A stretch of 35,749 bases of DNA from an uncultured bacterium. Lineage in GTDB: Bacteria > Patescibacteriota > Gracilibacteria > Absconditabacterales > Absconditicoccaceae. The stretch's first letter is position 1; every line of letters begins with the position of its first letter. This document shows, one piece after another, positions 21,524 through 23,602 of this stretch. A program made the position numbers and the translations under genes. The notes beneath the pieces were generated by a model. That model had not been told where the DNA came from. It did not search any database and saw nothing but the letters and a program-made list of their open reading frames with translations. The stretch is taken from positions 1 through 35,749 of the forward strand of contig CAMJDC010000006.1 of assembly GCA_946404285.1 (NCBI GenBank). Direction: 5' to 3'.

Positions 21524-21551
21524 TCTATAGGAAAAATCATTTCGTTTGCAA
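21524..21551 (-). promoter_or_regulatory. Promoter for frr-yidC
   Basis: TTGCAA and TATAGA with a 16-bp spacer on the reverse strand, about 50 bp upstream of the frr ATG. Confidence 0.6.
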
Positions 21552-21581
21552 TATTATTTTAGATAATATTTTTAAATGGAA

Positions 21582-23378
21582 TTAATTGTTTTCATCAGTC
21601 AGGAATCCTCATGATTGAATAGACCGTAATTTATGATAAATTCAGTTTTCATTTTGAATTAGGACGTTATGACTTCATTTTTCTACGATTTTTCAGTTAT
21701 CCATTACTATAATTTTGTCCATCTTGGCTATAGTCGAAAGTCTATGGGCTATTACGATGCAAGTTTTATTTTTCATTACTTCATCCATTGCGTCTTGTAT
21801 GTATTTTTCAGATTCGGAATCTAGTGAAGAAGTAGCTTCGTCCATTACTAAAATATTTTTGTTTTCTAAAATTGCTCTAGCAATAGCGATTCTTTGTCTT
21901 TCTCATCATGAAAGTTTGATTCATCTTTCTCATACATAACTTTCATATCCATTTTTTAAGTTTGTTATAAAATCGTGACATTTTGCCATCTTTGCAGCAG
22001 CAATGATTTCTTCTTCATTTGCATTAGGTCTTCAATATGCTATATTCTCTTTGATAGTTCTATGGAATAGAATTGGATCTTGTGGAACCATGGATAGTTG
22101 TCCTCTTAGAGAATCTTGTGTAACTTGTGAAATATCTTGTCAGTCTATGAGAATTTTTCATCATTGAATATCGAAAAATCTGAATAATAACTTGATGAGA
22201 GTAGTTTTTCAGCTTCCAGATGCTCAGACTATGGCAATTTTTTCTCCAGGTTTAATAGATAGGTTTAATCATTCAAATACATTTTTTCATTCGATATAAC
22301 TAAATGTTACATTTTCAAAATCTATTTTTCCATTTCAGATTTTTAATTTCTTGTTTGTATGGTCTTGAATTTCGTGTGGTGTGTTAAGTATTTCAAGCAT
22401 TTCTGTAGATTCTCATAGGGCTCTACTCATGGCTTTGAGAATGTATCTAATGTTGGATAATTGGTTAGAGATTCTCATCACATATAGTTGGACTAAGATT
22501 ATTACAGATGCAGATACCAATCATGCTCCCCATGCTTTTATGGCAAAGTATATAGATCAAATGCTGAATATGCTTGCAGTCATTCCACTTGCGAAAAAAG
22601 ATCGTTCTCCTCGTGTCCATTGTTTTTTCTTTACTTTCATTCGTCACGTTAAAGTTTCTTTAAATCTTTTAAATTCGTAAGGTAATGATGCGAAAACAGA
22701 AACATTAAAATTATTGATAATAGAATCTGATAGTTCTCATGTAGCCTTTGAATTTTGTTCATTCGCCTCTATTTCATACTTTTTAGTTATATTGAAAAAT
22801 ATAATTTGTATGGTAGTATACACCATAACGAATCATAGAAACATGAGTCAGATTGTTATACTTTCTCTCATGACTATAATTATTGTCATTGGTATGAATA
22901 TAATCATATTTAGTATCTGAAAAATGAATATATCCACTACCGTTTCATATGATCCAGCTAATTTGCTTATTTTTCTAATTAAAGATCATGATAAGTTATT
23001 TGAAAAAAATCTATACGAATGTCTGTGTATGTATTGGAAACATTCTTCGTAGATATCTTTAGTGGCATCATTTTCGAATTTTATCATTGGAAATCAAACT
23101 AGTCTTCGTGCTCAATTATTTGTTAATTCTAGTATTAGAAGTATCAGTAAAACTTTTAAAAGCATCGTAACAAGTTCTGGTTTTTCGATTCATGTCATAG
23201 ATACGATATCCACAAGTTTTGTTTGATAAATAGGAGCTATTATGGATATTCAGGCAATTATTATACTTCACAATAAACTTAGAAAGATTAGCCACTTGTA
23301 TGGTTTACTCTTTTTTATAAAGTACTTTATTACCATTCGTAAAATTATTTTATTCTTATTGTTTTCAATTGTTGTCAT
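21582..23378 (-). CDS. ABC transporter, fused membrane and ATPase domains (exporter, MsbA/multidrug type)
   Basis: 598 residues, a half-transporter that should dimerise. The N-terminal half has about six TM segments ([66 protein letters not shown] and others). The ATPase half has Walker A GASGSGKTT (about residue 385), a Q-loop MVPQDPILF, the signature [15 protein letters not shown], Walker [13 protein letters not shown] and the H-loop IAHRLST. It ends LWSIQSGGF with W as CGG, a common ending of exporters. The substrate is not evident. Upstream lies a leader peptide and mutually exclusive hairpins, suggesting attenuation. Confidence 0.95.
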
Positions 23379-23410
23379 TTTTTGAAATATTAAGGATTAA
23401 AAATTGTGCG

Positions 23411-23483
23411 TAAAAAAAGCTGCACCTTTCTTCATGCAGCTTGATGTATTTAATCCTATCAAAAAACTACTTATACATCAAGC
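23411..23483 (-). promoter_or_regulatory. Attenuator: antiterminator hairpin overlapping a terminator
   Basis: On the reverse strand GCTTGATGTAT (23483-23473) and ATACATCAAGC (23449-23439) form an 11-bp perfect stem. The following hairpin AAGCTGCA/TGCAGCTT plus seven T is a terminator. The two share AAGC, so they cannot both form fully. The terminator ends about 30 bp before the ABC transporter ATG. Confidence 0.75.
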
Positions 23484-23524
23484 TCATGGTATAAAACAAA
23501 GCAATATCGTTTTTTTAGTCGCAT
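23471..23524 (-). CDS. Candidate leader peptide of 17 residues
   Basis: ATG to TAA within the leader of the ABC transporter. Read with CGA as Trp it is MWLKKWYCFVLYHELDV, holding two Trp in the first six residues and a run of aromatics. Its stop codon lies at the inner edge of the 5' arm of the antiterminator hairpin, so a ribosome that finishes the peptide would block that hairpin and let the terminator form, while a ribosome stalled earlier would allow readthrough. No clear Shine-Dalgarno is seen. Placement supports a regulatory ORF; expression is not proven. Confidence 0.55.
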   Translation of the reverse strand: MRLKKRYCFVLYHELDV

Positions 23525-23602
23525 TTTACATTGATTTGTAATAAAATAAATAATTATTCACTAGAGTATACGAATTATAATCTATTTTGTGACAAAAATA
23601 TG

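Follow-up and report, generated by a model that had tools for sequence, protein, structure and literature searches.

What does the DNA between rarA and the neighbouring ABC exporter gene do? We addressed this question in the window, by which we mean the whole 35,749-nt stretch analysed, from an uncultured member of the Absconditabacteria, or candidate division SR1. Gene order on the minus strand is rarA (24811–23603, encoding the MgsA/RarA AAA+ ATPase), the leader element, the exporter gene (23378–21582), and the ribosome-recycling factor gene frr, which was identified by eye. rarA lies outside the element and ends at its promoter. The gene under putative control encodes a half-transporter of 598 aa with a TMD and an NBD (MsbA/Sav1866/ABCB type); it scored below every specific NCBIfam cut-off shown, so no substrate can be named. 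Genes in this genome are open only when TGA is read through as Gly. In alignments of the exporter and rarA, columns where the window has CGA or CGG show CGR (39) and TGG (22) codons in relatives, columns where it has TGG show CGR (24) and TGG (20), and no CGR codon falls in AGR/CGY (Arg) columns. Judged by these alignments, CGA and CGG are Trp codons in the window's genome, in agreement with PMC8629427.

An earlier note had placed a leader-peptide attenuator at 23411–23602; the interval is correct, and every part that it named is present on the minus strand. An additional part lies inside the interval and was missed by that note, as was the presence of the element before other gene families. 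It stands at 23594–23568: a conserved ECF-type promoter, TGTCAC-N16-CGTAT (TGTCACAAAATAGATTATAATTCGTAT in the window), found with exact spacing before orthologous exporters. Downstream of it, a 17-codon ORF (23524–23471) encodes MWLKKWYCFVLYHELDV in the code with TGA as Gly and CGA/CGG as Trp, with CGA at codons 2 and 6 as described. Arm 1, the 5' strand of the antiterminator (23488–23473, CATGAGCTTGATGTAT), comprises codons 13–17 and the first base of the stop codon, so that the arm does meet the peptide stop; the UAA starts directly after the last paired codon bases. Arm 2, the 3' strand (23449–23433, ATACATCAAGCTgCATG), contains AAGCTGCA, which doubles as the 5' strand of an intrinsic terminator (arm 2:arm 3, 23442–23412) of the form AAGCTGCA-TGAAGAAAGG-TGCAGCTT, with a 10-nt loop, followed by a T run. 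The exporter start codon lies 3' of this terminator, at 23378. The hairpin had been put at 11 bp and the segment that it shares with the terminator at AAGC; hairpin and sharing are real, but the core is 12 bp (AGCTTGATGTAT/ATACATCAAGCT), extending beyond one bulged G via CATG/CATG to 16 pairs in total, and the shared segment is the longer AAGCTGCA.

We interpret the element as a ribosome-mediated transcription attenuator controlling an ABC exporter of resistance type, with a probability of roughly 0.83. This reading draws on the parts themselves, their conservation and covariation, the mutual exclusivity of the two hairpins as seen in folding models, and the promoter motif. The window holds an intrinsic terminator, a mutually exclusive antiterminator overlapping it, and an ORF that covers the deciding strand. 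The transcript would start from the ECF-type promoter and encode the 17-codon peptide. In normal translation, the ribosome would stand over codons 13–17 as RNA polymerase transcribes arms 2 and 3; with arm 1 covered, arm 2 would pair with arm 3 and transcription would end before the exporter. If the ribosome stalled within the first eight or so codons, or if none were loaded, arm 1 would pair with arm 2, the terminator would be blocked and the exporter would be transcribed. The model presupposes coupling of transcription and translation. Such a device very probably allows the transporter to be made only when ribosomes stall, as under antibiotic poisoning. The direction proposed in the earlier note, with early stalling favouring antitermination and completion of the peptide favouring termination, is thus retained, strongly supported by conservation, duplex statistics and folding.

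Folded alone, the window's leader RNA forms the 16-bp antiterminator without the terminator (−36.3 kcal/mol; z = −3.5, with none of 200 shuffles as good), and its arm 1:arm 2 duplex has z = −4.5 (none of 300 shuffles as good). Ensemble folding was then performed with part of the RNA hidden: either arm 1, or everything beneath and 5' of a ribosome stalled at codon 6. With the ribosome at codon 6, the predicted terminator probability in the window was 0.00 and arm 2 was paired upstream with a probability of 0.85; with arm 1 hidden, the terminator probability was 1.00. The corresponding mean terminator probabilities over 21 leaders were 0.42 and 0.95. Before synthesis of arm 3, arm 2 was mostly paired upstream in all 21 leaders (0.58–1.00). 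At equilibrium, L059, L164 and L179 favour the terminator despite a stalled ribosome, and these leaders would therefore need kinetic folding.

The relation of the leader to its neighbours was assessed in relatives. Exporter orthologs in the same Absconditabacteria family are 44–75% identical. In front of 12 of them, in 12 further genomes, promoter, ORF, arm 1, arm 2 and terminator are all kept, and the genes upstream of these exporters are mostly unrelated. This bears on a more ordinary explanation, namely that the hairpin is merely the terminator of rarA, with a chance ORF, a chance palindrome and an exporter promoter further downstream. The terminator is indeed a textbook one and follows rarA; however, rarA relatives of 91–92% identity in three genomes (G003, G004 and G006) have neither a leader behind them nor a close exporter ortholog, whereas exporter orthologs behind other genes do have a terminator. 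The promoter motif precedes the leader in all of them, and shuffles and conservation rule out chance, which leaves this explanation scarcely credible. In G004 (L030), rarA leads directly into frr, and the intergenic sequence matches what lies beyond the exporter in the window. The promoter-leader-exporter block (21530–23602 in the window) is missing there, and judging from this match, the G004 gap is an empty site for a cassette gained or lost. Another arrangement is seen in G005 (L017), where an exporter without attenuator starts 34 nt downstream of the promoter; no leader was found at the exporter orthologs L016, L017, L054, L057 and L058. Given this joint presence and absence in relatives, and the promoter without attenuator in G005, leader and exporter form one unit in which the leader is optional. 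A further ABC exporter with the promoter (L133) has no detectable terminator.

Attenuators of this kind occur family-wide, before exporter, ABC-2, GNAT, MFS and ABC-F genes. All 22 arm-carrying leaders possess a terminator. For these 22, the most stable pairing of arm 2 with upstream RNA was set against 300 dinucleotide shuffles per leader: in 20 leaders at most six of the 300 shuffles matched the arm 1:arm 2 duplex energy, and pairing was weak in L053 (z −1.0) and L181 (z −1.5). An ATG ORF at the expected place, running through arm 1, is present in all 21 intact leaders, against 1.7 expected (sd 1.3), an expectation that is truly somewhat higher, as the start window was chosen after inspection of the data; nor are the 21 leaders 21 independent events, as several are homologous. 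The ORFs start about 45 nt after the −10 element, and in 15 of the 21 a codon boundary coincides with the start of arm 1. Codon-position differences gave a clear translation signal in the GNAT pair only (4/4/11). In longer leaders the stop codon lies 11–46 nt beyond arm 1, so the ribosome would have to act while crossing arm 1 or standing between the arms.

The earlier note had proposed comparing orthologous leaders for covarying stems and a conserved peptide. The stems do covary and the ORF is kept in all intact leaders; the peptide is conserved within groups of leaders only, with little sequence common between groups. Antiterminator pair columns show compensating A-U/U-A/G-C changes and the terminator shows A-U/G-C swaps, counted on hand-anchored arms, a procedure that leans towards structure. 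A MAFFT alignment misplaced arm 1, as loop lengths vary greatly, hence the anchoring by hand. The arms of L059 (CTCCGAC/GTCGGAG) and those of L175, L179 and L181 (ATAGAGAGG/CCTCTCTAT) are unrelated in sequence and follow the same architecture. Mutually exclusive terminator and antiterminator with conserved structure would also suit a riboswitch or a protein-binding leader, in which a ligand or RNA-binding protein would choose between the two states and the ORF would be incidental. What is conserved, however, is only the three arms and the ORF through arm 1; arms and loops are freely replaced, which leaves no aptamer. At the gathering score, an Rfam search of the window returned only a tRNA and no leader or riboswitch family; a match to OmrA-B (24 bits against a cut-off of 40) was rejected, as it is explained by the hairpin before the T run. 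We regard a ligand- or protein-set leader as very unlikely.

Two local variants were observed in addition. In four exporter leaders of genus g13 (L048–L051), an extra helix joins TTTCTCC, immediately 5' of the leader start codon, to GGAGAAA, immediately 3' of arm 1. This helix covaries (CTCCGA/TCGGAG vs. CTCCT/AGGAG) and may be a trap for arm 1 in the untranslated leader. The leader at the ABC-F locus L112 (G019) is shortened; it keeps terminator and arm 1, lacks an ATG ORF and seems to have decayed from a copy of the g13 leader.

What stalls the ribosome was considered via the peptides and the target genes. In the earlier note, the reassigned Trp codons were the sensor, and CGA at codons 2 and 6 is indeed a suitable place for a ribosome short of Trp-tRNA to stall in a genome that reads CGA/CGG as Trp. 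Trp is, however, absent from 11 of the 21 leader peptides and elsewhere stands anywhere from codon 2 to codon 31; the leader of L045, the nearest ortholog with the same attenuator (exporter 75% identical), contains none. Attenuators of Trp biosynthesis have a conserved run of regulatory codons and a biosynthetic target, neither of which was found: the genes behind these leaders are exporters, ABC-F, GNAT and MFS genes, and not genes of Trp biosynthesis or uptake. We thus abandon the Trp codons as sensor and consider Trp starvation a very unlikely signal. Cys is enriched in leader peptides (3.9% vs. 0.7%) and at first resembled a sensing signal. In GNAT and ABC-2 leaders its codons fall within TTGCTAT/TTGCTGT, a stretch of RNA pairing with arm 1, and this pairing explains the enrichment in those leaders alone.

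Because the same device precedes ABC-2, GNAT, ABC-F and MFS genes, the signal is most likely translation slowed by ribosome-targeting antibiotics rather than Trp. The ABC-F protein of L110 resembles ribosomal-protection proteins (403 bits vs. an NCBIfam cut-off of 380), and its leader resembles that of the exporter L052. The two ABC-2 leaders L175 and L179 share the peptide MNNF.F..SI..TP.N..FCD with the MFS leader L181. No leader was found at the ABC-2 loci L193 and L194, and no clear one at the ABC-F loci L186 and L187. In both of these ABC-2 cases the ATPase gene lies about 2–3.5 kb downstream of an attenuated exporter on the same strand (L194 on G044 contig C22, L193 on G046 contig C123), and each locus is perhaps one resistance island. 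What these genes encode suggests either ribosome-targeting antibiotics or translation stress in general. An attenuator that responds to starvation or growth rate, with any slowdown of translation opening the gene and no drug specificity, would account for the scarcity of peptide sequence common between groups, since stalling would then require no specific motif, and for a window leader that would read through without any ribosome. Against it stand the conservation of peptides within groups, such as the ABC-2/MFS peptide, and the resistance-type targets. This possibility is less likely than a drug signal but deserves more weight than Trp starvation; it overlaps with the preferred explanation, and both may coexist. 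A drug-slowed or drug-stalled ribosome is the best reading of the signal that we can infer.

The leaders are of two types. In GNAT and ABC-2 leaders, a segment around codons 3–10 pairs with arm 1 (z −2.3 to −6.0; L148, L162, L164, L167 and L189), and this pairing is absent from the window leader (z −0.3). The trp leader is a four-segment device; GNAT and ABC-2 leaders share this layout, whereas the window leader has three segments. Because of the extra segment pairing with arm 1, the three-segment type should, on these folding predictions, read through when untranslated and the four-segment type should not.

The promoter motif was examined across the family. TGTCAC-N16-CGTAT has 88 matches in 49 family genomes, compared with about nine for a reversed control pattern; outside the family it is about as common as the control, and it thus appears confined to the family. 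In the window's genome it precedes the exporter, a GNAT pair (C9), an ABC-2 ATPase gene (C24, with a variant −10), a gene for a single-TM protein (C38) and an ECF sigma gene (C14, with spacing 17). The first three carry a leader ORF and attenuator; the single-TM and sigma genes carry none. The sigma gene (L002:1632-2183, G000 contig C14) encodes 183 aa with Sigma70_r2 and r4_2 domains, and TGTCAC-N17-CGTTAT lies 125 nt before its start. Six other genomes have similar motifs 68–82 nt upstream of ECF genes, making seven of the 11 inspected sigma loci with an intact ORF, and this placement suggests autoregulation. The best NCBIfam matches of the sigma protein are SigY and BldN-type, below cut-off except for the ECF superfamily model; several ECF-type genes exist in the family. 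A bipartite promoter of fixed spacing before several genes including a sigma gene is the pattern of an ECF regulon, and from the form of the motif, its fixed spacing and its occurrence before sigma genes we infer that an ECF sigma factor reads it. ECF41 promoters (TGTCACA-N16-CGTC; PMC3426412) have a nearly identical −35, equal spacing and a similar −10. The sigma protein here differs from ECF41 factors (PMC3426412) in that its 183 aa hold regions 2 and 4 only, without the C-terminal regulatory extension of that group.

The same promoter precedes two further kinds of gene. Single-TM proteins (MKLxEYF..., 420–495 aa) lie directly behind it in many genomes (L163:687-2162 on G000 contig C38; homologs L107, L109, L111, L118–L120, L125, L157, L165, L168, L170, L172, L173, L177 and L182); they have no significant Pfam or NCBIfam match, and by eye look like a membrane anti-sigma or FecR-like protein. 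S-layer-like proteins have the motif with a long 5' leader (L106, L143, L149, L154, L169 with an SLH domain, L171, L178 and L180), and no comparable attenuator was noticed at these loci. As the motif stands upstream of S-layer-like genes, regulation by the presumed ECF factor may extend to the cell surface.

Judged from these genomes, an ECF regulon and ribosome-sensing attenuators of individual genes appear to be combined. We lean slightly towards a two-layer response, in which the sigma factor would turn on resistance-type genes, each gated by its own attenuator, a movable cassette that exchanges arms, peptide and target (ABC exporter, ABC-2, GNAT, ABC-F or MFS) with the logic kept, in three-segment leaders open when untranslated or four-segment leaders closed.

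Among the closest known systems is bmrCD of Bacillus subtilis, where translation inhibitors cause read-through at the BmrB leader (PMC4191407). There, as predicted here, a leader peptide precedes an ABC drug exporter, and in both cases an antiterminator overlaps an intrinsic terminator; here, in contrast, the promoter is ECF-type, the ORF is shorter and ends before the terminator, and the device serves several gene families. B. subtilis belongs to another phylum with another genetic code, and the likeness is one of architecture, with no sequence relation expected. In streptococci, the MsrDL/msrD and mef(E)/mel leaders (PMC10314930, PMC4335068) place an upstream ORF and a premature terminator on ARE ABC-F or efflux genes, and the vga(A), vmlR and lmrC leaders are attenuators of the same logic (PMC12421871). 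The leaders of L110 and, in decayed form, L112 likewise precede ribosome-protection-like ABC-F genes; drug and stalling residues are established in the known cases, and the likeness here is architectural, with no peptide homology claimed. Ribosome-mediated attenuation also takes part in the actinobacterial WblC/WhiB7 regulon, which confers resistance to ribosome-targeting drugs (PMC12421871). There the regulator's own mRNA is attenuated, whereas in the present family it is the target genes that bear attenuators, under a regulator that appears to be an ECF sigma factor. In our literature searches we found no account of leader-peptide attenuation from Absconditabacteria or the Candidate Phyla Radiation. 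The mechanism is thus known from BmrCD and MsrD; what is new is the phylum, the association with an ECF-type promoter and a device common to unrelated resistance-type genes.

If this reading is true, these bacteria, with their small, recoded genomes and their dependence on hosts, encounter ribosome-targeting compounds frequently enough for a regulated multi-gene response to be retained, and they couple transcription to translation. An ECF sigma factor and ribosome sensing at individual genes, two layers of control generally treated separately, would be joined, and the leaders would allow resistance genes in uncultured genomes to be found from DNA alone.
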